The notes beneath the pieces are model-generated. The model made no database searches, was not told the DNA's origin, and saw only the letters and a program-made list of their open reading frames with translations. A DNA stretch of 24,863 bases, from positions 1-24,863 of IMG/VR virus record IMGVR_UViG_3300030099_002872; one strand, given 5' to 3'. Origin of the DNA: a virus. Made by a program: the position numbers and the translations under genes. This document shows, piece after piece, positions 1 through 24,863 of this stretch; positions within the stretch are counted from its first letter, which is position 1; each line of letters begins with the position of its first letter.

Positions 1-1431
1 ATCATTTGCAGCGAATAAAGCGTTATGTGAATTCCAATATGGCTGAGTAGATGAAGGATGATTCTCTCTAAACATTCCTATTCGTGGTGAACCCAAATCT
101 GCTTGACCTGCTAACGATCTGCCTAGACTACTAAGCATCATTTGGTCGGAAGGAACAATCATTCTACCTCCAGCACCCTTTACTTCACTCGGATGTAAAA
201 AGTGTAGATTTGATGAATGACTCCAATTTGCTCTACGTCTTTCAAAGAAGTCAGCATCATTGAAGGATGATGATAATGTTTCACTTAATGGATGACCACG
301 ATTTGCATTGATAAATGAAGGAAAATGACTCCCCCCATCGGTTGAATATTGCATCAGTAAAGAGTTAGATTGATTGAACAAAGTGTCATCTAACCATCCT
401 CCGTCAAATATTTTCGGATAACTTTGTTTCAACATATCATGTAGTGATTTTGAATCTCTACCTACTCCCCCCCAAGGCTGAAACAAATCCCACCACTGAT
501 AGGTGTGACTTGGAACTATACCAGATGTATCATTGATGTAGGGGCTTACATAATGTAAGTCTGCACTTACACTTTCACTTTTCACAAAATCCGACATTGG
601 CATAGGAGGGACAACTGGTCCATGCCTATCACTCGCTCTTTGCCACCATTGTAAAATTGGTATCATTCTACCTCGAAATGAACGCATTGCTCTACCAAAA
701 GATAACCCTGCTTTTTCTTGCATTTTGTTTTGCAGAACTTTAGCATCAGGAGAAAGAACTCCATCAGTTTGAGCCATATCCCTTAGTATATCTAAGAAAT
801 GCTGCCTTTGGTCTGGTGTTTGATATTCTAAACCAAAAAGATACGGTAAAAGTCCAAGTGATTTACTCCACTCTTGTTTTTTACCCGCCCTATATTCCTC
901 ATCTGTTTTCATTCTATATCGATTCCTATCTCTAGTCATCAAATCAAACATTGATTCTTTTGGGTCGCCATATACATCTCTATCATAATTGATAGTTCTT
1001 TCACGCTCGGACATTTCTTTCAATAAGTCCATTACCTGCTCTAAATGACTCGCATAAGCAGGATCGCCCCATGAAGCACCATGTAAAAGAGGGCAACTAT
1101 TACTATCAAAGCCAAAAGGATGATGATTGCCAAATTGATTATCGGGGCTAGTAACCATCCAATCGTTCAAAGGACTGTTTGAAATTTTTGTATGCCCTGC
1201 CATGAAATCTTTGTAATCGGGAATCTGCATAGATGCAACAGACATGGGTGCAGATAAATCTGTCATTCTATATTCTGGCATTTGAGGGGCCATGCCCATC
1301 ATTGTAGCCATGTCCTCTTTACTGATGTTTTCTTTATCTACTGCTTCTACAAACTTAGAGTAGTCGTAATCCGATGCTTTATGGATTGCTATTATTGCAT
1401 CAGTTCTCAAACGGTCTAAATCCGTAGTCAT
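1..1431 (-). CDS. Unknown large protein, C-terminus cut by window edge
   Basis: Reading the minus strand from the ATG at 1431 gives 477 codons with no stop before base 1, so this is a real gene missing its 3' end. The start is supported by AGGGGTGA five bases upstream of the ATG, and it begins 11 bases after the stop of the EF-hand protein gene, so it belongs to the same operon. The protein is rich in Trp, His, Met and Ser, with paired Trp in the middle and a Gly/Trp-rich stretch around residues 335-350. I see no transmembrane helix, signal peptide or catalytic motif. Its position downstream of the portal suggests a virion or assembly protein. A major capsid protein is possible by position but the sequence gives no support for it. 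The family is not recognised. Confidence 0.8.
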   Translation of the reverse strand, partial: MTTDLDRLRTDAIIAIHKASDYDYSKFVEAVDKENISKEDMATMMGMAPQMPEYRMTDLSAPMSVASMQIPDYKDFMAGHTKISNSPLNDWMVTSPDNQFGNHHPFGFDSNSCPLLHGASWGDPAYASHLEQVMDLLKEMSERERTINYDRDVYGDPKESMFDLMTRDRNRYRMKTDEEYRAGKKQEWSKSLGLLPYLFGLEYQTPDQRQHFLDILRDMAQTDGVLSPDAKVLQNKMQEKAGLSFGRAMRSFRGRMIPILQWWQRASDRHGPVVPPMPMSDFVKSESVSADLHYVSPYINDTSGIVPSHTYQWWDLFQPWGGVGRDSKSLHDMLKQSYPKIFDGGWLDDTLFNQSNSLLMQYSTDGGSHFPSFINANRGHPLSETLSSSFNDADFFERRRANWSHSSNLHFLHPSEVKGAGGRMIVPSDQMMLSSLGRSLAGQADLGSPRIGMFRENHPSSTQPYWNSHNALFAAND

Positions 1432-3438: not shown

Positions 3439-5223
3439 TTATTGGTCTAATCCTTTGCGTTTTTCCTGTTCTTTGATTTTACTATCAATGATTTTTTCAG
3501 TTGGAGATTTCAAACTTCTTTTATCTGTTTTAGAAGATGCACCAGTAGGAGTTCCTTCGACTCTATCAATCATCGTAGGACTTTTGCCGCCGCTAGTTCT
3601 AGTATTCTTACTTTGAGTCCTCAATGGAGGCAAGTCTGTTCCAGATGTAGTGGCTACTGCATCATCAAGTGGAGTAGACCCTCTACTTGAATCAAACTTT
3701 GTCCTCTTGAACATCATGTTAGGGTCATTAAATATGTCCTCATCTCCTTTTTGAACCTGCTGTCCTCCTTGTTGAGCCATAGCCGCTTGTTGTTGTGCTT
3801 GGGCTATTTCCTCTTGACTAGGTTGTTTGAAATCAAAGTGCAATATCTTGTCATCAATACCATCTCTTAGGGTTGCTTCATAACCTGCTTGCTTCATTTG
3901 CATCATATTTCTAATAGCCATTTCATCTCTTCGCAAGTGCATGATTTCATCTTCCTCTTCATGCGGGTTGAGAACTAAATCCCATTCAGTAATCTCAAAG
4001 GCTGAAACAATTTGAGGGAATAAAATACGATTGTAAATTGACTGTGCATAGGCTACTGCCCTGTTACTAACAACTATTTGCATACCCTCATTGTTTAGAC
4101 CTCCACCCGAAACGTCATTCATGAATACATTTGATACGCCAAAGAACGCTGCTATGCGTTGTCTAATATCATCTTTTATTGGGATATACTGCAACTCTTC
4201 TAATGTGTCCATCATACGCACATATTCAAGACCGCCTCTACCTGATTCTGTTTCTACACCGATAGTCGGTATGTATGATGGGTCACGCTCAAGATGCTCT
4301 TGTATATTTCTTGCAGTTCGCTCTACTGTCTCCATATTGGATGACTTGATTACCATGACCCCTCTTGGCATACGCTTCTTTTGATAGGCAGAATAAACAT
4401 AATTATCCATAGCAATAAGAGTATTGACTTGCCTCCACATTGTAGCAACTGGTGAGCGACCATACAGTTTCGACGGCGACCACTTGCTAATGTGTAAGAC
4501 TTCACCCTCAGTATATACTTGGCCTTTGCCAACACCTGCCAAATTCATGTAATGAATAGGAACTACCGGCATTCCAGTTACAGGGCATTTATCTTTTGGG
4601 TCACTGGTTCTAAAGGTTCTATCAACTAAACTCGTATATTGACTACCTCCACGCACCCCTCTCTTATCAGCGAGTATTCTCATAAAAATTGGGTCGGCTC
4701 TTGTGATTTCTTTTACACGATAAAACATAATCTGTTTGGTATCAGGGTCTACAAAGTATTCTTTTGTGAGGATTAAATATGCGTCATCAACAATGTTCAA
4801 ATCCATCTCTATTTCTCTCATTACTTCAACAAAAGACTGAAGCATACCGTTCTTTTCGTTTAGCAACATTTCGGCATATTCTAGTTGGCTTTTGTCTGCT
4901 TTTCGGACTTCACCGCCACATTTCTTACAGGTTTCGACTTCTTGATGATATACTTCATCACAATCAACACACTTTACAACAAACTTTGGTTTCCAACCAT
5001 ATCCTTTTCTAAAGGTTTCAACAGACAAGTGGTTTAGAATGGATCTCAAGACCAAACACTCAAAGGTTGCTGCATACAAAGCGGGTATGGTTATTCCTTG
5101 AAGTAAAGGTGGCTCTTGAATACCAGATTGAAACAATGGCATAGTTGGCATTGGAGTAGTATGCCTTTCTAGGTCTATACCAATGGCTGAAAACAAACGT
5201 TCCATTCTTTCTTTATCAGCCAT
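3439..5223 (-). CDS. Portal protein with inserted zinc ribbon
   Basis: A 594-residue protein matching the general plan of phage portal proteins, the dodecameric ring through which DNA enters the head. The central part has the typical run around residues 240-290 (EVLHISKW, then LYGRSPVATMWRQV, then a long helix), followed by a segment (about 355-395) ending near the Gly-rich GGGLNNEG. Unusually, residues 85-102 hold a CxxC...CxxC zinc ribbon (C85, C88, C99, C102) within the N-terminal region. The last 130 residues are Gln-rich, then Ser/Thr/Lys-rich and probably disordered. The ATG at 5223 has AAGGAGG upstream, lying in the end of the preceding gene, which it overlaps by eight bases. Terminase lies two genes upstream, the usual head-gene order. 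Confidence 0.85.
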   Translation of the reverse strand: MADKERMERLFSAIGIDLERHTTPMPTMPLFQSGIQEPPLLQGITIPALYAATFECLVLRSILNHLSVETFRKGYGWKPKFVVKCVDCDEVYHQEVETCKKCGGEVRKADKSQLEYAEMLLNEKNGMLQSFVEVMREIEMDLNIVDDAYLILTKEYFVDPDTKQIMFYRVKEITRADPIFMRILADKRGVRGGSQYTSLVDRTFRTSDPKDKCPVTGMPVVPIHYMNLAGVGKGQVYTEGEVLHISKWSPSKLYGRSPVATMWRQVNTLIAMDNYVYSAYQKKRMPRGVMVIKSSNMETVERTARNIQEHLERDPSYIPTIGVETESGRGGLEYVRMMDTLEELQYIPIKDDIRQRIAAFFGVSNVFMNDVSGGGLNNEGMQIVVSNRAVAYAQSIYNRILFPQIVSAFEITEWDLVLNPHEEEDEIMHLRRDEMAIRNMMQMKQAGYEATLRDGIDDKILHFDFKQPSQEEIAQAQQQAAMAQQGGQQVQKGDEDIFNDPNMMFKRTKFDSSRGSTPLDDAVATTSGTDLPPLRTQSKNTRTSGGKSPTMIDRVEGTPTGASSKTDKRSLKSPTEKIIDSKIKEQEKRKGLDQ

Positions 5224-6502
5224 TTACAATATCCTCCTTCAAATCAACTATGTCTTTATCCGACATATTCCATGATTTTAACAGTTGGACTTGCTTTGTT
5301 CCTTTTGCCAAATCGTAAGTTAGACATTTTAATGCGTCATCATCATCTAACATAGCCAATTTTAATATCTTTAAATCTCCTATGTTGCCATGAGGTAATG
5401 CGTTTTCTATCGCTTTTGACACTGATATTTCACCTTCAATGACCAAACCTTTACCCTCCGCTATAACACCTGTGATGCCTAATTCATTATTCAAGGCTCT
5501 CGCATATTCTTTCTTGACATTTGACTCAAACGGCAATATTAATCTAGGAATTCCACGTGGACTTATTTCTATATTACCGCCCATTTCATACAGATTGTTA
5601 ATTAAAGCACCTGCGTCTTTGATGAAAATATTTGCCGTATCTAATCCATAAAACAGTGATTTTTGGTCGTGCTTTGAACCACTACCAGTAGAAATAATAT
5701 CGTAAAGAAATCCGTGTGATTTGATTAGTTTTGATATTCTAGCGGTGCTACCCTTTACTCCATGACTTTGTAATGATTGAGAATTCATAATTCCATAATT
5801 CTCTAAGACCTCATGGGTTTTTTCTAATATACGCATTTCGGGTGCGCTTAACCGTTCACCTTTGTTTATGCGACTAGACCAATTAGAGTAAGCGATTTCT
5901 TTTTGTTCATCGTCATTAGAATCTAGCCAATGTTTAACAAATCGTCTAAACGGTATTTCTAATGTGCTAACATTCTTTTGAAGCATGTTCCAATCAAAGT
6001 CAGTAAAGGGTATGATGTCTAATACACTTTCTGGAACACTGGGAAATGACTTTACTAAAGCCAATCTTTCAGCCTGTATTAGAGGTTCTATTAGGTCAAG
6101 CATTTCTATTTTATCTGCTTTGATTAATAAGTTAGAAATGTCTTGACTAGACATACCAAAATTATCTATAAACCAGTTTTTTGATATTGGGACTGGTGAT
6201 GTTCCGGTATCTACTTTTGTTCCTGGTTGGTTCTCTACGGTAGAACTTTCGGGAGAGTCCATGCCCTCTAATCCCGCATCATCTCTAGGACTACCAGTTG
6301 TATCTTTTTCTTTTTTAGAATCATTGGCTGCTTTTTGTTTGTCGGCAAGAAGTTTTCTTTCTTGAACAAGATTCTTTTGTTCGGCTTGATTTTGTTTAAT
6401 TTCGGCTTGAATGACCTTTTCATCAAGCAATTTTTTTAACACATCGTCTACGGATTCGACACCAGTTGTAGCACTAATTGTTATGTTTAGATTATCAAAC
6501 AT
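5216..6502 (-). CDS. Unknown protein between terminase and portal; possible LAGLIDADG-like fold
   Basis: A 428-residue protein. Residues 15-65 form a charged coiled coil, 66-105 are Ser/Thr/Gly/Asp-rich and probably disordered, and the remainder is globular. Residues about 295-375 follow the hydrophobic and glycine pattern of one LAGLIDADG half: a helix ending LYEMGGNIEIS, strands, then a helix and ELGITGVI, a short strand and a final helix. The acidic catalytic residue of that helix is replaced (YEMGG), so nuclease activity is doubtful. The similarity is read by eye and is weak. The start overlaps the terminase stop by eight bases and follows AGGGTGG. An adaptor or packaging role would fit the position. 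Confidence 0.7.
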   Translation of the reverse strand: MFDNLNITISATTGVESVDDVLKKLLDEKVIQAEIKQNQAEQKNLVQERKLLADKQKAANDSKKEKDTTGSPRDDAGLEGMDSPESSTVENQPGTKVDTGTSPVPISKNWFIDNFGMSSQDISNLLIKADKIEMLDLIEPLIQAERLALVKSFPSVPESVLDIIPFTDFDWNMLQKNVSTLEIPFRRFVKHWLDSNDDEQKEIAYSNWSSRINKGERLSAPEMRILEKTHEVLENYGIMNSQSLQSHGVKGSTARISKLIKSHGFLYDIISTGSGSKHDQKSLFYGLDTANIFIKDAGALINNLYEMGGNIEISPRGIPRLILPFESNVKKEYARALNNELGITGVIAEGKGLVIEGEISVSKAIENALPHGNIGDLKILKLAMLDDDDALKCLTYDLAKGTKQVQLLKSWNMSDKDIVDLKEDIVNG

Positions 6503-7931
6503 TCGCCCACCCTAACCTACTTTGCCATACATTAGCATCTAAAATAACAATATTATCCCTATATTCTTTTGTTGCTTGAACTGCTAATGCAAGAGCCATA
6601 ACCATGTCATCGTGACCGCCTAAACTCTCCATACGCCCATTATCTAGCATAGTAAAGGTGGATAATTCAGTTAATAAATTATTCATTAATCTTTTAGTGC
6701 CTCCCTCATCTTTGTAAGGGAGTGATAACTTACCCTGCTCAAACTGTAACTGAAGAGTGTGAATCAAAGCCTCCTTTTTCATTCTGCTCATATTGAATGG
6801 TTTGATTGGTAAATCACTTATCTCATTCAACACTTGGTTAAACGCCATAGCAAAATTGTTCGTTTCTAATTCTATGATAACAGGATTGAACCTTGCATTC
6901 AATTCTATTATCTTATCAATTTGAGAAGAGAAATCCATACCTTTCTCATGGTGAGTGTGTATGATGTGTTTGTTTTTATTTTCATCAACTGCTATTACCA
7001 TCATACAAGTATAGTCTGCTCTCCTATCTGCGGATATTGCAGGATCCCAACCAATGTAATAATTGTATGACTCTCCATCGTGAGGATAATATGAAAGCGA
7101 TAATTCCTCATCCTTCACTTTGTTTAGAACTTCTTCAGGGAATAAACTTGCTTCACTCGCTATCGGCTTACACAAATACTCTCTAGTAAATGCTATTGAT
7201 GTCATGTCATTCCTTCTTGCATTCAAAGCCTCTAAAGACCAACGCTCAGGGAACAACGGCTCGCCTGTTTGTTCATTTATGGCCGGATATTCACCTACTT
7301 TGTATGATTCTAATTTCTTCAATTCCGAATACAAATCAGTATATGAAAAAGGAGTGCCAACAATACATAATTGTGCAGTATGGTGTAACACTGGTAACAA
7401 TGCAGTATAGAACCATTGAGAGACATGCTTCAACTGAGTCTGTGCTTCACTCGACAATATATCGTCTAAAACTACAATTTGAGGGTGCGCCCCACGCACC
7501 GCTTTACCAACAGACATAGCAGTTATGGATGATTTGTTTGTGAACTTGAACTTCTGCTTTGCCCATCCTCTTTTTGGTTTCAAATGTTGTAGTGCAGGTA
7601 TTGTTTCAATCAATTCATTCATTTTTGCCATGTGGTCTATTGACTGATGTTGGCTATGTGAAAAGAATAACACTTCAGTTCCAGGGTTGTATGCCATTTT
7701 CCACAACAAATATACTCGGTAAAATACAGACTTACCATGATCGCGACTGGCTATTATGCAAGTTTTGTTATTGTTCTCGGACATATCAAACCATTCTTTG
7801 TGAAAGTCGGTCAATATCCAAGGATGTTTTTGGTCTATCTTACCACATATCTCTTCAAAAAAAAACTTGAAATCTCTACGACCCATTTCAAAATCAACAG
7901 ATGCCGTTAATTCATTTAAGCCACTAGACAT
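6495..7931 (-). CDS. terL: Terminase large subunit
   Basis: A 478-residue DNA-packaging motor: an N-terminal ATPase and a C-terminal RNase H-like nuclease that cuts concatemeric DNA. The ATPase has a Walker A of the terminase type around residue 62-68 (SRDHGKS), a Walker B with catalytic acid near 152-157 (IVVLDD), and a coupling motif near 192 (GTPFS). The nuclease domain shows GWDPAIS near residue 295 (first metal-binding Asp), IIELE near residue 350 (second acid) and GGHDDMVMA near 440 (third acids). All parts look intact. I choose the ATG at 7931, with GAGTGA five bases upstream; a GTG at 7940 would add three residues. It is followed by an unknown gene and then the portal. Confidence 0.95.
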   Translation of the reverse strand: MSSGLNELTASVDFEMGRRDFKFFFEEICGKIDQKHPWILTDFHKEWFDMSENNNKTCIIASRDHGKSVFYRVYLLWKMAYNPGTEVLFFSHSQHQSIDHMAKMNELIETIPALQHLKPKRGWAKQKFKFTNKSSITAMSVGKAVRGAHPQIVVLDDILSSEAQTQLKHVSQWFYTALLPVLHHTAQLCIVGTPFSYTDLYSELKKLESYKVGEYPAINEQTGEPLFPERWSLEALNARRNDMTSIAFTREYLCKPIASEASLFPEEVLNKVKDEELSLSYYPHDGESYNYYIGWDPAISADRRADYTCMMVIAVDENKNKHIIHTHHEKGMDFSSQIDKIIELNARFNPVIIELETNNFAMAFNQVLNEISDLPIKPFNMSRMKKEALIHTLQLQFEQGKLSLPYKDEGGTKRLMNNLLTELSTFTMLDNGRMESLGGHDDMVMALALAVQATKEYRDNIVILDANVWQSRLGWANV

Positions 7932-7945
7932 ATATATCACTCAAA

Positions 7946-8980
7946 TTATAATCCCATTGCTCTTTTTGCTTCATCATCGGAATTTCTTTTTGTTTTCTTT
8001 TTCTCAGTGGCCTTTTTAGGTTCTTCATTACCTGTTTTGTATTTATCTGGTAAAACATCGTAGAAGCCAGCATCTTTGATTCTATCCATGTTTTCTTTTA
8101 CCCATTCATCACGTGTATTTTTGTTTTGAATATTCTTTGTATATTCGGCATATTTCATTTTAGCATCGTCGGCTTTTGGCTTTGTCAATTCAACCGACCT
8201 AGTTTTTAGTGCTTTTTTACCTTCTTCCGATGCTGCTTTTGGTTTTTCAATTGGTGCGGGTTTAGTCTTGTTTGCACCCTTTTTAGCAGTTTTGGGGTCA
8301 ATAGCAGGTTTTATCTTGGGTTGTGTTTTCTTTTTCTCTTTATCAAAATATTCTACTGCATCTTTCATGTCTTTCGACTGTTGTAACCTCGCTTCTTTAC
8401 CTGCCTTTCTACCCTCTTGATTAAATTTGGTATATGATTGGTTTATGGCCCTATTAATTGCTTCCATCATAGCACTGTAACTGTCATCAAACGCTTTATC
8501 GTGTGCAGGGTCTTTTGGTTTAGCCATCTCTTTCATTTCATCTGCTTCAATAGGTCCGCCTGTGGTATCTTCATACATATCTTTAGGCGGTGGCAATTGC
8601 TTAGGCTTAGATGAAGTAAGGGAAGGCGAAGTGTTTTCTTTGAATGGATCGCGAACCTTATAAGGCAACATTCGGTTCTCGTCGGTTATTGGAGAGGATT
8701 GAGAACTAACTTCTTCAAATTCTGCATCTTCAGGCGGGGGAGGCGGTAATGAAGGCATAGTAGGAGTAGCCACTCTTGGGGCAGATACTACTTCTTGAGT
8801 AGCCGGTTCAGGTGTAGACTCATCATCACCATAACCTGTATAGAGTTTCATGTTTCTTTTTGCTGCATCAAAGCCCTGCAATGCCTTTTGCCTCTTACGA
8901 TCCATTGCGGCATTATAACCTGCTGATATTGTATCAAAGATACCTTTGTAGATTATATCCAATGCCTCTTCCCGACTCAT
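7946..8980 (-). CDS. Low-complexity Pro/Lys-rich protein upstream of terminase
   Basis: A 344-residue protein. The first 50 residues form helices (IIYKGIFDTISAGYNAAMDR). Residues 52-150 are Pro/Ser/Glu-rich with a run of six prolines, and residues 190-330 are Lys/Ala/Pro-rich, highly charged and probably disordered or extended helix. The ATG at 8980 is preceded by AAGGTGAT, which includes the stop of the upstream gene. No family recognised. Long disordered, charged proteins next to terminase are often scaffold or internal head proteins, but that is inference. Confidence 0.7.
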   Translation of the reverse strand: MSREEALDIIYKGIFDTISAGYNAAMDRKRQKALQGFDAAKRNMKLYTGYGDDESTPEPATQEVVSAPRVATPTMPSLPPPPPEDAEFEEVSSQSSPITDENRMLPYKVRDPFKENTSPSLTSSKPKQLPPPKDMYEDTTGGPIEADEMKEMAKPKDPAHDKAFDDSYSAMMEAINRAINQSYTKFNQEGRKAGKEARLQQSKDMKDAVEYFDKEKKKTQPKIKPAIDPKTAKKGANKTKPAPIEKPKAASEEGKKALKTRSVELTKPKADDAKMKYAEYTKNIQNKNTRDEWVKENMDRIKDAGFYDVLPDKYKTGNEEPKKATEKKKTKRNSDDEAKRAMGL

Positions 8981-16297: not shown

Positions 16298-17029
16298 CTA
16301 AAGTGAGTCTAATAATTCAATCAATCCCTTTTCTACGTTAATTCCATGCTGAGATGACATTGCCATGATTTCAGCCCTGTAACCTGCTTTTCTCAACCGT
16401 TTCAAAGATTCTCTAAAAGGTCTAACAATAGGATGCTCTTTTTGTATTCCCATTTTCCATAGGTAAGCCGCCCTTTCATCCCACCATAAGTCCATTTTAT
16501 TTATCATTAGACAAAACAGTTTAGGCCGATACTTTTTTACTCGTTTCTTGGCTTTTCGAGATATATTCTTTGATACATCTTTTTTCACTATGTTATCCAC
16601 TAGATAAGTCAAACCGGCTACCGCATCACTAACAAACTGAGGGGATGTCAATGCTCTATGATCTATCATGTAAATTACTAACTCTACATTTCTTGAGAAC
16701 ATATCATCAACCCAAAGGTTACGGAACATAGCATCACCCCCTATGTCTGTGGTTGTAACTGGTTTTTTGACTTTGATTAATCTAATTTGTTTTCTAGTTT
16801 CTTTGACTTTACGATAACCCGTTGCAGTATTAGACTTTGGATGTGCAGTTCTCAGGCTAAATGGTATAGGGTCTATATCCCCAGGAACTGTAAGATACTG
16901 GTCTAATGTAGTCTTACCAACCATAGACGGGCCATAAATACCTATTCTAAATGGCCTCAAAATCCTATAAAAACCATAGATGGCTGAAGCAGATGCCATT
17001 ACCATGTGTCCGGCGATTAACGCAGACAC
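16298..17029 (-). CDS. Membrane-anchored small GTPase-like protein
   Basis: About 243 residues. The first 25 form one hydrophobic segment. A complete G domain follows: G1 GPSMVGKTT (Walker A), G3 D-I-G-G in TTDIGGDAMF, G4 N-K-M-D, and a G5-like SSQHGINVEKGL near the C-terminus. This layout is that of Arf/Ras-superfamily GTPases. I prefer the GTG at 17029, preceded by AGGTGG and just downstream of the previous stop; an ATG at 17077 would overlap that gene by 38 bases, and an ATG at 17005 would shorten the membrane segment. It lies in an operon with three small membrane proteins, so a role in assembling or remodelling a membrane-bound complex is plausible. GTP binding is well supported; its partner is unknown. 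Confidence 0.85.
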   Translation of the reverse strand: MSALIAGHMVMASASAIYGFYRILRPFRIGIYGPSMVGKTTLDQYLTVPGDIDPIPFSLRTAHPKSNTATGYRKVKETRKQIRLIKVKKPVTTTDIGGDAMFRNLWVDDMFSRNVELVIYMIDHRALTSPQFVSDAVAGLTYLVDNIVKKDVSKNISRKAKKRVKKYRPKLFCLMINKMDLWWDERAAYLWKMGIQKEHPIVRPFRESLKRLRKAGYRAEIMAMSSQHGINVEKGLIELLDSL

Positions 17030-17039
17030 AAACTCCCAC

Positions 17040-17264
17040 CTAACCGAATAATCCTTTGATGTAATCCCATACATCACTTGGAGGATAGCCTAACAATTCC
17101 AACCCAATCAATATTCCAAATGTAGCAAAGATTCCTCCTAGTAAGGCGAAAAATGTTCTCACCCACCCCGCTACCCGTTCCATTTTTCTCTCATAAGAGT
17201 TTTCTGCCAGTATTTGCGACATTGCTTCAGTTTGTCGCTCTTGGCGGGTCGTGAAAGGCCACAT
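17040..17264 (-). CDS. Single-helix membrane protein
   Basis: A 74-residue protein with a polar, charged N-terminus (residues 1-33), one transmembrane segment (about 35-59) and a short C-terminal tail. The tail, SDVWDYIKGLF, resembles the motif that begins the accessory proteins further upstream in the operon direction (D-V-W-D-x-x-K-x-x-F), but lacks the leading Phe. The start follows nine bases after the previous stop. Likely a partner of the GTPase encoded next to it. Confidence 0.75.
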   Translation of the reverse strand: MWPFTTRQERQTEAMSQILAENSYERKMERVAGWVRTFFALLGGIFATFGILIGLELLGYPPSDVWDYIKGLFG

Positions 17265-17943: not shown

Positions 17944-18453
17944 ATGAACCAACCGAACATAATAGAAGCCGTTAGAGCCTTACGCTCATACAATAGAGCA
18001 GTAAGCGGCCAAACAAACGATCCAAATAGTATTCAATCGTGGATTGCTAGACATGCTGAAAGAGATAGCACGATTAAGAGTTTTTGTCAAGATGCCGCCA
18101 TTGGGTTATTGGGATATATGAATAATCCAATCTATTCAGCAAACATGACAATAGAGCAAGCATCGTGGTCTGGATTGTATAATCAAGCAGAACAATTGAT
18201 TGCTGAAGAAGCGTTTTGGGAAAATGAAGAGAGCATAAGAGCAAATGATACTACCTTTACTAGACTATTTGGTGATGATATTAACTGGATTCACCAGTAT
18301 ATGATATACAAAGGTGTTCCATCTCAAGTTCCATTTGAGTATTACATTAACATGATTATTGATGACCTACGGAGTTGTCATGGAAACAGTAGAGCAGGTT
18401 CAATATCACATATTGAAAAAGACCCGACTATGTTTGAACAACCCATTCCTTAA
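17944..18453 (+). CDS. Unknown protein, only plus-strand gene
   Basis: A 169-residue soluble protein, mostly helical, with several Trp and acidic residues and no membrane segment or Cys pair. Family not recognised. It has its own TATA box and starts at an ATG with no ribosome binding site, probably leaderless. Its stop overlaps the end of the convergent gp88 gene by four bases, leaving no room for a terminator. Being divergent from a regulator gene, it is probably controlled separately from the two minus-strand blocks, perhaps at a different stage of infection. Confidence 0.75.
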   Translation: MNQPNIIEAVRALRSYNRAVSGQTNDPNSIQSWIARHAERDSTIKSFCQDAAIGLLGYMNNPIYSANMTIEQASWSGLYNQAEQLIAEEAFWENEESIRANDTTFTRLFGDDINWIHQYMIYKGVPSQVPFEYYINMIIDDLRSCHGNSRAGSISHIEKDPTMFEQPIP

Positions 18454-19742
18454 TGCTTGTAGTAACCAACTTTAACTCCGTTCTCGTTTCTTACCACATT
18501 GGGGTCAAAACAATCCGAACATTGATGGTCTACACAACTGCTACCAGGATTTACAGATGCTAAACAGGTGCTTTGAGGCGACATATACTCCTTATTATCA
18601 ATTACATTAGAATATTGTAACTGAGGGTATCTATCAACCAAGTCAATAAACTTCTGTGAAATCTTAGGAACGCCACGCTCTACATTCAAATCATTGTCTA
18701 ATGTTTGATTGATGAATGGTAAAGAAACCATTACAGACATATTCTTTGGTATCGTATCTTCATCTCTAGCACTCATAGCACGTGCTACTGAACTTCTTTC
18801 TCTTGTGGGAATCCAGTGAAATATATCGGGATTCTGTAAGGCTATATCCATAAGCGCACTCATCATTTCTGGTGAGTCTACATCTCCAGAATCGAAGAAT
18901 CGCATTAATGGGAAATTCTTAGTTTGGTATGGTATTTCTTGAGCAATGTTAGATGCCCATGCAGCAGGGTCCTCGCCCATTTTCATAGCAGCATAGTTTC
19001 TCAATAAATGGCGTTGTGAAGCATTCATAGGATAACCTTGACCTCTACCGTGAACATAACAATTATGGCAAACAGTTCCAGGCACTTCTCGCAATGTTCC
19101 ACCTACCCTGCACATGTGCGTTGGCATTGAAAAACTACCACCAGGCATCTTTGTTGTTTTTGAAAAGCCTCCGCCAATCAAACGCTTAACCTCTTGAGGT
19201 TTTGTGAATGTGCCATATTCATATTTTGGTAAGTCTAGCCCATAACCCTCTAATGGATAATCAAAAGGCATATCCATCAAATCGGTCACTATTTTTTGAC
19301 CTTCGGGAGTGTTGTTTAAAAAATTGAAAACAGACCTGTCTTTTTTTCTATTTGGAATATCGCTTATTAGTGAATAAAGAGAATACGGCTCATCTTCAAG
19401 AAATTCTTGCTTAACTATCAACCAAACCGTGTCAAAGGGTTCATCACTTTTTTTTTTTACCTTAGAATGTAATGCGTTCAAGGTGTCTGTTGAAAGTTTA
19501 GTTTCTTTCGGCTTTGTTGCAGGTTTTCGAGGGACACCTCTTGCTCTATCTAACAATGCCCTAATTGAAGCGTTTTCTGGTCCACCAGTTTCAGGATCTA
19601 TCCTTGTTTTCGGATAATTTCGTTTTGCCTTCGTGCTTTCAGCCATGTTTGCCTCTACAACTTCTTCTATCTCGTCATCTCTTTCGGGAAAAAGAGGATT
19701 AGACTTTTTGAGCAATTGCCACGCTTGTTCAAAACTGCTCAT
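18450..19742 (-). CDS. gp88-family protein with two tag motifs
   Basis: About 430 residues. The C-terminal part (about 185-430) matches the gene-88 protein family of mycobacteriophages: Cys at 211, 225 and 228 (CHNCYV), then MRFFDSGDVDSPEMM, NPDIFHWIPTR and a Cys-rich end (CLASVNPGSSC, CSDCFD). The family's activity is unknown to me; its Cys layout suggests bound metal or an iron-sulfur cluster. The N-terminus carries the shared motif FEQAWQLLKK (residues 4-13), then a disordered stretch, then a second copy, FDTVWLIVKQEF (103-114), directly after an 11-adenine run. I start at the ATG at 19742, which puts the motif at the N-terminus as in its neighbours; an upstream TTG at 19781 seems unlikely. 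Confidence 0.85.
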   Translation of the reverse strand: MSSFEQAWQLLKKSNPLFPERDDEIEEVVEANMAESTKAKRNYPKTRIDPETGGPENASIRALLDRARGVPRKPATKPKETKLSTDTLNALHSKVKKKSDEPFDTVWLIVKQEFLEDEPYSLYSLISDIPNRKKDRSVFNFLNNTPEGQKIVTDLMDMPFDYPLEGYGLDLPKYEYGTFTKPQEVKRLIGGGFSKTTKMPGGSFSMPTHMCRVGGTLREVPGTVCHNCYVHGRGQGYPMNASQRHLLRNYAAMKMGEDPAAWASNIAQEIPYQTKNFPLMRFFDSGDVDSPEMMSALMDIALQNPDIFHWIPTRERSSVARAMSARDEDTIPKNMSVMVSLPFINQTLDNDLNVERGVPKISQKFIDLVDRYPQLQYSNVIDNKEYMSPQSTCLASVNPGSSCVDHQCSDCFDPNVVRNENGVKVGYYKH

Positions 19743-19760
19743 GGCCTTTCGATAGGATAG

Positions 19761-19777
19761 GTAAATATAGTTATATC
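19761..19777 (-). promoter_or_regulatory. TATA-like region upstream of gp88 gene
   Basis: On the minus strand reads ATATAACTATATTTAC, covering two overlapping TATA-like boxes about 24 and 31 bases before the ATG at 19742. It lies in the 39-base gap after the methyltransferase stop. No convincing ribosome binding site precedes the ATG (AAAGG lies too close), so a short-leader transcript is plausible. Confidence 0.4.
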
Positions 19778-19781
19778 TCAA

Positions 19782-21155
19782 TCAGTTGAAATCTTGAAGG
19801 GTTTTTTGTTTAGGTCCCATGCCAAAAGCACTTTGAGCAATTGCTCTCATTACAGGTGGAACTACTACATTACCGATGGTTTGTTTTAGAGCAGGTATAG
19901 ATTTTTTATTGCCCTTTGGTGTGATATATCGATAATACATATTTCTTGCAGGTTCAAAGTCGTATGTAGGGTCAATGCCTTGTAACATTGCTACCTCTTC
20001 CGGTTCAAGCATTCTGTTGTAAAGAAGTGCAGGTAAGTTATGAGTAATGCCAGTAGTAGTTTCAGTCAATGGTTTCATGTGTTTAAACGCAGTAGACTTT
20101 CTTTCATCATTCCATACGGCAGGTGTTCCTCCTTTAGTTCCACGACCAGGGAATGCGCTACCCATTTGAGTCAAGAAACTTTGATTCAAAAGTTTCTCCG
20201 CAGCCGCTTGATTTAATTGACCTCTTGATTGTAACTCATCTATGATGGCTTTTTTGTTGGCAAAATTATCCCTCTCTTCCTGTTCAAGATGTGGCAAAAA
20301 GTCCAAGATAGAGGGGCTTGCTTCTCGGCCAGCCTGTGGTTTTCTAGTTGCTTTGTAATGTGTTGGATTTTTATCCCAACCTTGGCCTATGAACATTCTA
20401 CCTCTTGTTGTAGGCACTCCATAATCAACTGCATCCATCTTTGCATTTGGCTTGTCTCGAAGTAATCCCATGATTACTTTTCTAAATTCTGGTGATACAT
20501 AAGGTTCTAACAATTCGGGATGTTCATTTACAAAATCAACAACCCCTGGTGCTTCTTCTAAAGACCAAGAGTTTAGATTTACGTCAGGGTGTTTCATTAA
20601 TTGCTCGACAGTATAGAAAGCATTACCTATCATCGGCCATGCTTTGAGTCTATTTTCGTGCAACTCTTGTTCGGTCATACCCGAAGGACCAGACCTACGC
20701 ATTGCGTTACTGAAGGCTTGACATGGAGGGGAAGCGTGATAATGCAGTTTTCTACCTTGAGCAGCATCAGCATAGCGTTCTACTAGGTCGTCAGGGTGTA
20801 ACATTCCTTGATCTGTTCCAATATACCCTTCAATCACATCACCCTCGAAGTTGGCTTCACGCAGTCTGTTAGCAGCATCCATAGCATCAACAGATGCAAC
20901 AACTGGAATACCTGCACTTTCAAAACCTAAGTCAGCACCGCCCATTCCCGCAAACTCAGTGACTGCTGCTGCGTCATCACGCATAGGCATTTGAGGAAAT
21001 CTCAAATCATAATTTTGTTTCATTTGTTCTAGTATGTCTTTATCAACATTACTAGCCTTCATCAGCATTGACGACCACGCTTCCTGAAATAAAGCCTCTG
21101 GTGTCATTACATGGGCGATACTCTCTTTGTGTAAAAAAATACCCCTACAATCCAT
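19782..21155 (-). CDS. DNA (cytosine-5) methyltransferase
   Basis: A 457-residue C5-cytosine methyltransferase using S-adenosylmethionine. Motif I is TEFAGMGGADLGFESAG (residues 66-82), motif IV SPPCQAFS with the catalytic Cys at 145, and motif VIII VPTTRGRMFI. The C-terminal motifs are LEPEEVAMLQGI and IGNVVVPPVMRAIA (motif X). Motif VI is altered: the usual E-N-V reads E-E-A (WSLEEAPGV), with the key Glu kept. The first 60 residues are extra and carry the shared motif FQEAW. The ATG at 21155 fits a short-leader transcript from the TATA box at 21182-21190; the ATG at 21107 would place the motif at residue 6 as in its neighbours. No restriction enzyme is beside it, so host-defence evasion or regulation is likelier than restriction-modification. 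Confidence 0.92.
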   Translation of the reverse strand: MDCRGIFLHKESIAHVMTPEALFQEAWSSMLMKASNVDKDILEQMKQNYDLRFPQMPMRDDAAAVTEFAGMGGADLGFESAGIPVVASVDAMDAANRLREANFEGDVIEGYIGTDQGMLHPDDLVERYADAAQGRKLHYHASPPCQAFSNAMRRSGPSGMTEQELHENRLKAWPMIGNAFYTVEQLMKHPDVNLNSWSLEEAPGVVDFVNEHPELLEPYVSPEFRKVIMGLLRDKPNAKMDAVDYGVPTTRGRMFIGQGWDKNPTHYKATRKPQAGREASPSILDFLPHLEQEERDNFANKKAIIDELQSRGQLNQAAAEKLLNQSFLTQMGSAFPGRGTKGGTPAVWNDERKSTAFKHMKPLTETTTGITHNLPALLYNRMLEPEEVAMLQGIDPTYDFEPARNMYYRYITPKGNKKSIPALKQTIGNVVVPPVMRAIAQSAFGMGPKQKTLQDFN

Positions 21156-21181
21156 GTAGTTGGAGAGGATTTAATAAGTAA

Positions 21182-21190
21182 GTTATAAAG
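21182..21190 (-). promoter_or_regulatory. TATA box upstream of methyltransferase
   Basis: On the minus strand reads CTTTATAAC, a strong archaeal TATA match centred about 31 bases before the ATG at 21155. A second AT-rich stretch (TTATTAAAT) lies about ten bases closer. It sits just downstream of the stem-closed element at 21198-21294. Confidence 0.45.
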
Positions 21191-21197
21191 CGGCTAC

Positions 21198-21294
21198 TGG
21201 CAGACAAGGGTTGCATTAAACGTTATTCTCCGACACATAGAGTTTAGTTAGGTTTTCTTTTGGGCTTTTTTTTTCACCTAACGCTTGTCTGCCA
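21198..21294 (-). other. Stem-closed intergenic element, possible structured RNA
   Basis: The gap between the zincin and methyltransferase genes holds a perfect 11-base inverted repeat (TGGCAGACAAG at 21198-21208 and its complement at 21284-21294), extendable to about 15 pairs with one mismatch. Nested inside is a perfect 7-base inverted repeat, GTTAGGT at 21247-21253 and ACCTAAC at 21276-21282, around an A-rich loop on the minus strand. In the minus-strand transcript this would fold into a closed stem with an internal hairpin and a single-stranded remainder of about 35 bases. It could be an mRNA processing or stability element, a small RNA, a regulatory leader or a recombination site. No known RNA family is recognised. 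Confidence 0.55.
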
Positions 21295-21295
21295 C

Positions 21296-22726
21296 CTAAT
21301 TACCACCAGTGAAAGCCATAGATGAATCCATTGCATCTCTATTAGGATTTCTAAGGGCATTCGCAAGCGTATAAGCATCTTCTATTTCACGCAATACCGC
21401 ATCACTTCCAAATTTTGGTTCTTTATATCGTGCAGGTATTCTTTCAAGTCTGCGTGATTTTGTTTTTGGTTTAAAGAATAAATCGCCATCTTGTAGATAA
21501 TCTTCATAATCACTTGGTAAAAATTCGCCATCTCCTTGACTATCATAATACCCAAGATACATTGACACTAAATCGGGGTTTAATGATAAATCCCCATAAT
21601 CATTCCACCGATACAGATAAGCATCACCAACTCCATCATCTACATCTTTGTATTGTGAAGGATCTATCATTTCATAATTGGCAAGGAATTTTTCAGGGTC
21701 ATCTCTAAACAAATCAAGAGTTCCATAAGATTGAAATGCGTTTTTGTAATTATCTTCAAAGAAGTCTGTAAGTTTGTTTCTTAGTTCTATGTTGCCAATG
21801 CCCTCTTGGATTTCTTTAGGTAAATCTTCAAAAGAACCTATTTCATTTTCATCAAGTCCTCTAATTTGTCGCAATAAGGCTTTTACTGGTTCATATCTAC
21901 TCGCTATTTTCTTTCTTGCAGCACCCGAACCTTGACCGCCAAATTGAGCAGGGCCTACATTTGTTCTGTTAAGATATTGAGATGCCATGCTCAAAACTGC
22001 ATTTTCTAAATTTCGTTTCTTTCTTTCATTTGAAAAGGTTGATGCTTTTTCGGCTCGTTTTGCATACCTTCTACCTACGTCGGGATGAGAAAATAAATTA
22101 TCTATTACTTTTTTACTATCAAATGGGTTTTGAGTCATGTATGCAATAAATTCTTTCAAACTTGCTTCAGTAGTAGGGCTATTGCTCATATGGTCATAAT
22201 AATCGAAAAGGTCATACATCATCCGTTCTATTTCTGCTCTCCTACCTTGTTGTCTCAAAAATTCCCTTTGATGACCCCTACTAGAATAACCAGGGTCTGC
22301 AAGTTGATGTGCTTCATGCCCCGATTCGTGCGTTGTAGTGTCTATGACTTCTTGATAAATATTCTGCTCTACAAGTTCATTATAATATTGAACAATTGGT
22401 TCATCATTATCAAAAGGCACATTCCCTCTAAACATTCGTAACAATCGTGCCTTTTCCTCACGTGTGAAACCATAACTATTCATTGCGGCTCTATAAGCCT
22501 TCAATTTTGCGATTTGGCTGATAGGTCCTAACAATGTGAAATTTTTATCTGTTATTGTTTGGGTTTCATCCGAGCCGTAGGGTTTGAACATGTAATCTAC
22601 GGGTTTTCTAAAATGATAACCATAAGCGTCAGGTTGTTCATCTTCATAACTTTCGCCACTCAATGAACCTCTTAAGGCAAAATCGGCCTTAGCCAATTCC
22701 CATGCTTGCTCAAAGGGTTCAGTCAT
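21296..22726 (-). CDS. Zincin-like metalloprotease with N-terminal tag
   Basis: A 476-residue protein. It opens with the shared motif FEQAWELAKADF (residues 5-16). A zinc-peptidase signature HESGH lies at residues 133-137, with a probable third ligand Glu near 192 (KEFIAYMTQ). The same HESGHEA and E-x-x-A-x-x-x-Q pair occurs in the next tagged protein, so the two share a fold. The rest is acidic and Tyr/Asp-rich. The ATG at 22726 follows GGGGGGAG and overlaps the previous gene by eight bases; an ATG at 22744 would overlap more and shift the tag inward. Substrate unknown; possible targets are host surface, envelope or cytoplasmic proteins. Confidence 0.78.
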   Translation of the reverse strand: MTEPFEQAWELAKADFALRGSLSGESYEDEQPDAYGYHFRKPVDYMFKPYGSDETQTITDKNFTLLGPISQIAKLKAYRAAMNSYGFTREEKARLLRMFRGNVPFDNDEPIVQYYNELVEQNIYQEVIDTTTHESGHEAHQLADPGYSSRGHQREFLRQQGRRAEIERMMYDLFDYYDHMSNSPTTEASLKEFIAYMTQNPFDSKKVIDNLFSHPDVGRRYAKRAEKASTFSNERKKRNLENAVLSMASQYLNRTNVGPAQFGGQGSGAARKKIASRYEPVKALLRQIRGLDENEIGSFEDLPKEIQEGIGNIELRNKLTDFFEDNYKNAFQSYGTLDLFRDDPEKFLANYEMIDPSQYKDVDDGVGDAYLYRWNDYGDLSLNPDLVSMYLGYYDSQGDGEFLPSDYEDYLQDGDLFFKPKTKSRRLERIPARYKEPKFGSDAVLREIEDAYTLANALRNPNRDAMDSSMAFTGGN

Positions 22727-24101
22727 CAAACTCCCCCCTTTCATACCGTTCCATCATTTCTTTTCTCCAAGAAATGATAGCGTCTTGCCATTCATCCCAT
22801 TTTTCTTCATCTTGAGGTTTTGGTGGTCCGTAGTATTCTGTTATTGCACTTGCAGGAATGGGGCTTTCAGTCCATTGGTTATCTCCTTCTGGTGGAAATA
22901 ACCTTCGATTAGGATTTTTGACGGCATCAAGAGGGAAATGAAGGAGAACAGGATCGCCACCATCCTTGCCTCTCGTTAAGTCGGAACGGATATTGGCAAA
23001 ACCTATCGCCTGTTCAGGACTTTGTGAGAAAAACACCGAAGGTTTGGTGAAAGCGTCTGGTGCTTTTGGTTGGAGTCCTTGTTCTCTTATCCTCTCAAGA
23101 ACACCAGTTGTAGTCCCGTGAAACGGTGCTTTCATCAAATCCCAAACATCATCAAATGATTTTATGACTCTTGGCTTAGGCATTCTTATTTGCTTCCCTC
23201 CCTCTCTAGTTTGAAATTGTTTAGGTGCTTTGTATGAATGTGCGGCAGTATTTGTATGCCTTGCTAATCTTTCATTGACTTTATCCTCATCTGCAAAATG
23301 CTGAAGTGTGTGCGCCCCTACTTCATGTGCAGCATTAAAGTTTTCATTAGGCAATATGCCTTGATTTACCGCTTGCACTAATTCTTCATCTATCGCCTCA
23401 TGACCGGACTCATGAACAATTGTAGAGATTATATCATCAATAGCCTCATCTTCATCAAAACCAGCAGATGAGAATAAATTACGGTAACGATTTGCTGGAC
23501 CATAAGTAGATAGATTAGTTCCTGTATGAGTAGCATAATCCCTATCTTGCCCCTCAAACTGATATAATTGATTTATGTTACTTTGTAGGTATCTTTTGCC
23601 GCTTTTGTCATAACCTTCAATATCTTGACCTTTAGCATCTTTATAGTCTATTATGGTTTTTCTTGGAGTATCAGTTCGCATAGTCTTTGTTCTTGGTAAA
23701 GAGCCGCCCCTTCTAAACTCGGCAGTTTCTGGAGTTGCATCTCTACCTCGGTCAATTTGTTCTTGTTCAGTATAAGGATTCAAATCAGTTCTGTATGATA
23801 TTCCCCCTGCACCTTGCACTTTTTTAGATGGGTCAAAGGTTTGTGCTGCATCTCCTGTAATTACAGTATTCTCACTTGTAGGATTGCCATCCTCTTGAAT
23901 AAGTTCTGCACCATAGTAAGGATCCCAATCACGCTTACCAGCAGTAAAACGGCTAAAGAACCCAGTTGGTCTTTTAACAAAATCAGGAACAGTAACATTT
24001 GCCGTTGCTGAAGGAGGCGTGTATTTTCCTCCTGTCATTTGATTTCTTGAATCAAAATAGAAATCCTTTGTCAAATTCCAAGCGGTGTCAAAGGCGGTCA
24101 T
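22719..24101 (-). CDS. Tagged zincin fused to ADP-ribosyltransferase-like domain
   Basis: A 460-residue protein built as tag, zincin, tag, ART-like domain. FDTAWNLTK (residues 4-12) begins it. A disordered region follows, then HESGH at 230-234 with a probable third ligand Glu260 (HEVGAHTLQ). A second motif copy, FDDVWDLMK at 316-324, directly precedes HGTTTGVLERIREQGLQP, FFSQSPEQAIGFA, PVLLHFPLD and ESPIPASAI. These follow the strand-by-strand pattern of phage ADP-ribosyltransferase or KptA-like folds, with His328 as the likely NAD-binding His. Modification of a host protein by ADP-ribose is inferred; catalytic residues beyond the His are not certain. The start overlaps the upstream stop as ATGA. 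Confidence 0.78.
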   Translation of the reverse strand: MTAFDTAWNLTKDFYFDSRNQMTGGKYTPPSATANVTVPDFVKRPTGFFSRFTAGKRDWDPYYGAELIQEDGNPTSENTVITGDAAQTFDPSKKVQGAGGISYRTDLNPYTEQEQIDRGRDATPETAEFRRGGSLPRTKTMRTDTPRKTIIDYKDAKGQDIEGYDKSGKRYLQSNINQLYQFEGQDRDYATHTGTNLSTYGPANRYRNLFSSAGFDEDEAIDDIISTIVHESGHEAIDEELVQAVNQGILPNENFNAAHEVGAHTLQHFADEDKVNERLARHTNTAAHSYKAPKQFQTREGGKQIRMPKPRVIKSFDDVWDLMKAPFHGTTTGVLERIREQGLQPKAPDAFTKPSVFFSQSPEQAIGFANIRSDLTRGKDGGDPVLLHFPLDAVKNPNRRLFPPEGDNQWTESPIPASAITEYYGPPKPQDEEKWDEWQDAIISWRKEMMERYERGEFDD

Positions 24102-24565
24102 TCCATCACCTCTAATCGGTCTTTAGGCCAAACATAATCGGGGGCATTTGTTCTCCACAACTGCCCTGCCTCATAGGTTTGGCTCTCATCCGGCATCAAA
24201 TCCAACGGAACTTTGCGATTTGCTAAAACATGAGCCATTAAATCATATAATGCGGTTGCATAACCTCTCCTTCTAAACGGCTCGTCTGTTTCAACTCCTG
24301 TTGCCATCATTATTGGCATGTTTTGATAATATGTCTTTTGCGCTTCCGATTCGGAACGGGCTTTGTTTCCATAACCCTCTCCAATGAAACCCGAAATAAA
24401 ATCATCTCCCGAATCAACTACAATTGGCATTGTTTCTTTGCTTTTTGGGTCGTAAAAATCGCCTTGATACCTTCTCCCCATCCACTTATTGTTATCAACT
24501 TCTTTTACAGTGTTTGGGATTATAGGCATCTTCACAATAGCCCAAGCGGTGTCGAAGGCGGTCAT
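24098..24565 (-). CDS. GNAT-like acetyltransferase with N-terminal tag
   Basis: A 155-residue protein. It begins with the shared motif FDTAWAIVK (residues 4-12), whose DNA is almost identical to the start of the next gene. The second half has RRRGYATALYDLM (98-110), the acetyl-CoA-binding R-x-x-G-x-A loop and helix of GNAT acetyltransferases, followed by a short strand and YEAGQLWRT near the C-terminus. The preceding strand (IMMATGVETDEPFR) fits GNAT motif A. The domain is small for GNATs, and the acceptor is unknown. Both ends overlap neighbouring genes as ATGA. Confidence 0.68.
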   Translation of the reverse strand: MTAFDTAWAIVKMPIIPNTVKEVDNNKWMGRRYQGDFYDPKSKETMPIVVDSGDDFISGFIGEGYGNKARSESEAQKTYYQNMPIMMATGVETDEPFRRRGYATALYDLMAHVLANRKVPLDLMPDESQTYEAGQLWRTNAPDYVWPKDRLEVME

Positions 24566-24863
24566 TCGTAACCCTCCAATTCTTGAAGTATATTTGAAAC
24601 AAGGGGGCTTCGGGGAATTACATCTTCATTTGAAAACCTAAGCCCATCTTCTGGTCTATTAGGATAAATATGCCCTCCCATCAACACTTGTAGATTACTA
24701 AGTCCTTTTCCTGTTTTTGGATGGTCTTTTTCTCGAATGCACCTTGCCATGTATGACCCATTTGTTGTGATTATGCGAGTTGTATGTTCGCATCTTTGAG
24801 AGCCACTATCCTTACTGGCGGGGGGGTTCATATCCAATTTTGCTTCTTTGAGCAAATCCCAGG
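24562..24863 (-). CDS. Tagged small protein, N-terminus beyond window edge
   Basis: The frame is open to the right edge, and its first visible codons read W-D-L-L-K-E-A-K, the second half of the shared tag motif, so the true start lies outside the window. A TTG at 24855 is therefore not the start. About 100 residues are visible, with two Cys-x-x-H-like pairs (RCEH and RCIREKDH) that might hold zinc, then a polar C-terminus. No family recognised. The stop overlaps the start of the GNAT-like gene as ATGA. Confidence 0.72.
   Translation of the reverse strand, partial: WDLLKEAKLDMNPPASKDSGSQRCEHTTRIITTNGSYMARCIREKDHPKTGKGLSNLQVLMGGHIYPNRPEDGLRFSNEDVIPRSPLVSNILQELEGYE

Follow-up and report, generated by a model that had tools for sequence, protein, structure and literature searches.

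The internal proteins of phage T4 are diverse defence proteins which have only a capsid-targeting sequence (CTS) in common and are placed in the scaffolding core (PMC3012670). Alt, an ADP-ribosyltransferase (ART) of the same phage, is packaged and injected (PMC5512222), and packaging and injection are also predicted for the polyvalent proteins of phages and conjugative elements, which carry ART, zincin-like peptidase and DNA methylase domains (PMC5512222). Here we describe a short peptide, in the following called the tag, that is shared by otherwise unrelated proteins encoded on IMGVR_UViG_3300030099_002872, a viral record of 24,863 bases that was analysed over its whole length (the window), and by many proteins of related viruses. 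The tag is probably a virion cargo tag, by which enzymes would be co-assembled with the procapsid for injection. A preliminary description of the window had already put forward a docking helix for injected cargo and had pointed to the T4 internal proteins and Alt, which indeed provide a good functional precedent.

Occurrence of the tag

The preliminary description had reported the motif on six successive minus-strand genes. It resides at the N-terminus of the five complete ones (Table 1). The sixth, the edge gene, is partial and its tag is visible solely as WDLLKEAK because the record ends there; this remnant cannot be judged alone and is only consistent with the tag. The motif was correctly placed at the N-terminus in the complete genes, but internal copies exist as well, both in the window, where two on the minus strand had been overlooked, and in 13 multi-tag proteins. 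For the gp88-domain protein an ATG ahead of SSFEQAW is the likely start, not the TTG at 19781.

A search with the terminase large subunit (TerL) yielded 80 related viral loci that were kept. A regular expression for the tag found 494 copies in 480 of the 2,415 distinct proteins from all loci then gathered (non-independent sequences, genes called as greedy open reading frames), compared with 4.4 copies after shuffling and 6 after reversal of the proteins; the motif is therefore not due to chance. Most copies begin 2–8 residues past a methionine. In tagged genes the ATG follows a G-rich, Shine-Dalgarno-like track, and the N-terminal placement is therefore genuine. On the DNA level, a degenerate pattern matched in 27 of 30 TerL-relative records, with up to 16 matches per record nearly always on one strand, and the reversed pattern had no match in the same 30 records. 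Clustering of the sequences downstream of the tag at a BLAST E value of 1e-4 gave 167 groups, some of which might be merged by distant homology, in agreement with the statement that the downstream domains are unrelated.

Sequence, helix and level of selection

The logo of 415 non-redundant copies reads M-[TS]-A-F-[DE]-x-A-W-x-[LIV]-[LVM]-K-[AM]-P, with each motif column partly fixed by the regular expression, and spans about 13 residues. From about +12 after the F, information is near background, and when some 50 unrelated tagged proteins were aligned with MAFFT, little conservation was evident except for the tag. The motif is not part of a longer homologous domain. The residue two before the F is of helix N-cap type in 82% of the copies (background 32%) and position 2 of the tag is acidic in 88%. 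An N-cap residue plus such an acidic position constitutes a classical capping box. F1, A4, W5 and the L or V at position 8 lie on one face of the helix. The tag is an autonomous N-capped amphipathic helix of roughly ten residues; MTAFDTAWDLLK is an example of this type. AlphaFold2 (AF2) models of a stand-alone tagged ART from a related locus (L086:5803–6255) and of the GNAT-like protein of the window place the helix at residues 3–11, at a predicted local distance difference test (pLDDT) score of 62–64, which is below the confidence of the folded domains.

Some arrays of tagged genes repeat the same codons, e.g. TTCGACACCGCTTGG, as would be expected if the tag were a DNA or RNA feature at gene starts such as a recombination site or a translation leader. 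However, codon identity at shared tag residues amounts to merely 0.53 within and 0.48 between genomes, the DNA flanking the tag upstream and downstream is not conserved (identity near 0.28), every synonymous choice is found and copies occur inside genes. Selection acts on the peptide and not on codons or flanking DNA. Nucleotide-level explanations, which we consider extremely improbable, were dropped for lack of conservation in codons and flanking DNA. Tag positions 3, 7 and 8 exhibit genome-specific preferences beyond all shuffles, even when a single tag per body family is counted, and no such preference is seen in the four residues that follow it (positions 10–13). Within a lineage the tags therefore vary in concert, as a common partner or copying from one another would lead one to expect. 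No conserved columns are present at +14 to +40, and a prohead-protease site of the T4 type was not found just downstream of the tag.

Proteins behind the tag

The bodies attached to the tag include ART and GNAT-like folds, cytosine methyltransferases, gp88 domains and zinc ribbons. As regards the domain labels assigned previously, those of the methyltransferase and the gp88 protein have Pfam support and those of the ART and the GNAT protein have support from AF2 and Foldseek; the zincin label can be retained insofar as the HExGH motif, its sole basis, is read in two proteins (HESGH, directly in the sequence, in that of 460 residues). The model of the stand-alone ART (pLDDT 89) matches KptA/Tpt1 with a Foldseek probability of 1.00 (best E value 1.1e-4, template modelling (TM) score 0.4–0.5) and also DarT1, and the protein is accordingly predicted to have an ART fold. 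The GNAT-like protein of the window is one of 30 related bodies. All top Foldseek matches of its model (pLDDT 86) are acetyltransferases at a probability of 1.00, with a best E value of only 2.2e-3 and TM scores of about 0.45, and its Pfam GNAT score is weak (0.05).

The 150 residues after the internal tag of the 460-residue protein are 81–83% identical to a stand-alone tagged ART (L086:5803–6255; in the relative G002). Because its ART half matches this protein, the HExGH and ART protein seems to have arisen by fusion of two tagged genes, with the tag retained at the junction. Altogether, 13 proteins carry 2–4 tags. The protein at L164:7408–9480 is polyprotein-like, with four tags (residues 8, 327, 478 and 636) on 690 residues, and its internal tags are preceded by [AR]-S-G-D. 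A looser [AR]-S-x-[DE] is frequent ahead of internal tags, where it might contribute to the helix cap or instead serve as a linker or cleavage site.

Tags of the methyltransferases are decayed in places, as in the G002 homologue, which is 55% identical to the window protein and begins MSEALFNEAFSLML. Neither the methyltransferase nor the ART bodies have close relatives among 50,697 phage records. The gp88 bodies match marine phage proteins across the C-terminal domain only, and a single-protein search with the gp88 protein of the window returned no relatives in the viral collection. Tagged proteins in two alignments (A1 and A2) match DUF6321 (8.1e-17) and DUF5872 (1.8e-10); one likely member is the protein at L089:5199–5417 (G002 81199–81417).

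An N-terminal peptide on enzymes that are potentially harmful to their producer could also be a control element, i.e. a degron or an inhibitory peptide that silences toxic enzymes or shortens their life in the producing cell. The same tag is, however, present on small zinc-ribbon proteins, on the DNA methyltransferase and on the long protein encoded upstream of TerL (see below), all of which a degron would destroy too, and this counts against such a function, as does the recurrence of the tag inside proteins. We regard a control element as highly unlikely.

Table 1. Tagged genes, internal tags and head-module genes of the window. Tag coordinates run from F to the last motif residue.
Feature	Coordinates	Strand	Tag (coordinates)	Remarks
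Truncated tag	24838–24861	−	WDLLKEAK	Edge gene 24562–24861, cut by record end; partial
Tagged GNAT-like protein, 155 aa	24098–24565	−	MTA-FDTAWAIVK (24530–24556)	
Tagged HExGH (zincin-like) and ART protein, 460 aa	22719–24101	−	MTA-FDTAWNLTK (24066–24092)	
Internal tag of the 460-aa protein	23130–23156	−	FDDVWDLMK	Directly before ART domain (about 22722–23129)
Tagged HExGH (zincin-like) protein, 482 aa	21296–22744	−	MTEP-FEQAWELAK (22688–22714)	
Cytosine-5 DNA methyltransferase	19782–21155	−	FQEAWSSML, degenerate (21063–21089)	PF00145, 1.4e-16
gp88-domain protein	18450–19781	−	MSS-FEQAWQLLK (19707–19733)	PF17338, 5.7e-17
Internal tag of the gp88 protein	19410–19436	−	FDTVWLIVK	Upstream of gp88 domain
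Low-complexity protein, gene just upstream of TerL	7946–8980	−	Without tag (REEALDIIYKG)	
TerL	6495–7940	−		phrog_38, 2.6e-75
Portal protein	3439–5223	−		phrog_18178, 1e-56

Viruses carrying the tag

Magrovirales (Aoguangviridae and relatives) have genomes of 90–110 kb with two opposite modules and encode a chaperonin, HMG-CoA lyase, an RFC-like clamp loader, a head protease and an HK97-type capsid protein (PMC10768690). The relatives of the window likewise comprise 90–110 kb in two opposite gene modules and encode an archaeal-type chaperonin (Cpn60_TCP1, 1e-131), an ERCC4 nuclease and an RFC-like AAA clamp loader. An HK97-type capsid protein (phrog_24667, 4.9e-51) and a head maturation protease (8.7e-19) are present in G002; these two genes were seen in relatives, as the window fragment stops short of them. 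The tag viruses share size, modules, chaperonin, lyase, clamp loader, head protease and capsid type with the description of Magrovirales by the International Committee on Taxonomy of Viruses, and this gene content points to magroviruses, tailed viruses of marine archaea. A search with the viral chaperonin returned archaeal proteins as the closest matches (about 40% identity), other archaea being represented and Poseidoniales not.

HMG-CoA lyase-like genes sit within the tag arrays; untagged ones lie in or beside arrays at G002 21202–22071, G014 93103–93996 and G026 82289–83131. An apparent tag on one HMG-CoA lyase (L132, FDISWCVSL) was rejected as one of the few chance matches expected.

A strict tag pattern occurs in 87 stretches of IMG/VR and in none of 84,980 prokaryote genomes, a set in which Poseidoniales were not scanned by name; equal abundance of the motif in cellular genes is thereby contradicted. 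Related contigs bear the N-terminal motif alongside TerL (28 of the first 36 tag-bearing contigs, 45–87% identity), most of the remainder being fragments, and the magrovirus capsid protein was detected in 43 of 59 tag-bearing contigs tested. These data support confinement of the tag, within the material covered here, to one virus lineage.

In the phage collection searched, the capsid protein best matches those of the Druskaviridae HVTV-1 and HCTV-1. Window positions 1–1431 encode the N-terminal part of a protein of approximately 1,150 residues ahead of the head protease; its position matches that of the zeta-toxin protein of Druskaviridae. Within the virion gene block, a syntenic GTPase-like protein (16298–17077) with weak Arf/EF-Tu matches is 44–81% conserved in relatives, which is unusual for a tailed virus.

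Late genes and the protein encoded upstream of TerL

Of the 67 N-terminal tags in five near-complete genomes, 66 are located on the late strand that encodes head and tail, as opposed to 288 of 482 untagged genes (Fisher p=1e-12, with neighbours in arrays being non-independent). The same holds for all eight tags of G052 (one gene counted twice) and both tags of G024, and G002 has tag arrays on both sides of its structural module. A possible alternative is that the helix docks late proteins on a hub outside the virion, be it a host complex, the viral chaperonin or a replication or packaging factory, and that they are never packaged. A common partner of this kind would account for one helix on unrelated bodies as well as for genome-specific tag flavours, and late operons produce non-structural proteins too. 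On the other hand, a head-module protein bears the same tag, just one of the 67 N-terminal tags lies on the strand opposite the late genes, and ART, methyltransferase and metallopeptidase domains match those of injected polyvalent proteins (PMC5512222), which would be needed early and not late. We consider docking on a non-virion hub unlikely.

The head-module protein in question is a long, charged, low-complexity protein encoded immediately upstream of TerL. Among 42 intact, non-identical cases, 27 have F..[AVGS]W at the N-terminus; overall, the pattern is present in 59 of 782 proteins, and in 4 after shuffling. In many lineages (L038, L055, L066 and others) it bears two C-terminal SLLP motifs, SLLPxS followed by SLLPxGW, and by this paired end a core or scaffold protein might dock. 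We take the protein to be a candidate for such a function. A second conserved head-module protein is also tagged. The preliminary description had stated that no motif copy occurs in terminase or portal, which is correct for the regular expression; its view of the head module has to be modified, however, in that the TerL-upstream protein is tagged in most lineages.

These tagged head-module proteins, the first of which sometimes has a second tag-like motif near the C-terminus, could also indicate that all tagged proteins are virion or scaffold components which use the helix as an assembly contact in the head core and are structural or degraded there instead of being injected. Most bodies differ between genomes, though, and many resemble enzymes; structural subunits are not usually of this kind, and we judge a purely structural role to be decidedly unlikely. 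Together with the non-virion hub it constitutes the main alternative to a cargo tag.

A probable tag for virion cargo

A shared helix, diverse enzyme cargo, late genes and a tagged head-module protein come together as in T4, and a virion cargo tag is therefore the explanation we favour. Tagged proteins would be made late in infection together with head and tail. The exposed helix, with the face formed by F1, A4, W5 and L/V8, may bind one partner of the procapsid interior and thereby bring the proteins into the head, from which they would exit with the DNA at the next infection. ART, GNAT, methyltransferase, gp88 and zinc-ribbon domains could then act on host targets and defences. Of the docking helix originally proposed, the short helix, the unrelated bodies, the single lineage and the late strand are borne out by observation, while packaging, receptor, injection, actions on the host and any cleavage are what we infer.

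Several observations weigh against a cargo tag. Late-strand position also fits non-packaged late proteins, and some arrays contain untagged genes, for example for HMG-CoA lyase. In the clade of the window (11 of the 42 cases), AxDxIYK replaces the tag on the TerL-upstream protein, and these viruses have kept their tagged arrays nonetheless. Capsid protein, protease, portal and TerL are without tag and no receptor was identified. As the internal copies demonstrate, the tag does not need a free N-terminus. Finally, neither late tag arrays nor any other repeated N-terminus were seen in the related Druskaviridae HVTV-1 (scanned apart from a gap of 2 kb) and HCTV-1 (scanned in its late half).

The chance is slightly better than even that the tag represents a general address system of magroviruses, in which one docking helix brings at least a dozen enzymes per genome into the virion, from a set that turns over quickly. 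If so, sequence alone would reveal which proteins are injected into an archaeal group that ranks among the most abundant in the ocean. From a signature of ten residues, hundreds of magrovirus proteins that otherwise defy annotation could be predicted to be virion cargo. They would form a catalogue, open to testing, of factors that serve host takeover and counter the defences of uncultured marine archaea, and the tag would be a candidate peptide for loading proteins into capsids of archaeal tailed viruses. No description of the tag was found in the literature searched, which left out key magrovirus papers, and the parts of the magrovirus literature covered do not mention such a system.

Comparison with known systems

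Like the T4 CTS, the magrovirus tag is a short N-terminal peptide on diverse late proteins with ART among the cargo, and a head maturation protease is common to T4 and the tag viruses (PMC3012670, PMC5694885). The tagged set also resembles the polyvalent proteins in its effector content of ART, zincin (HExGH) and methylase type. In polyvalent proteins the domains are strung on giants, whereas tagged proteins are mostly single-domain with occasional fusions that keep both tags. Short peptides that send unrelated enzymes into a shell of HK97 fold are also known as the cargo-loading peptides of encapsulins, which are usually C-terminal and differ in sequence from the magrovirus tag. Compared with the CTS, the tag occurs internally and in multiple copies as well, serves far more cargo families, belongs to archaeal viruses and is not followed by a detectable cleavage site. 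The likeness is functional, without a claim to sequence relation or to membership among CTS: the tag would work like a CTS, which suggests a separate origin of cargo loading by tags in the tailed viruses of archaea.

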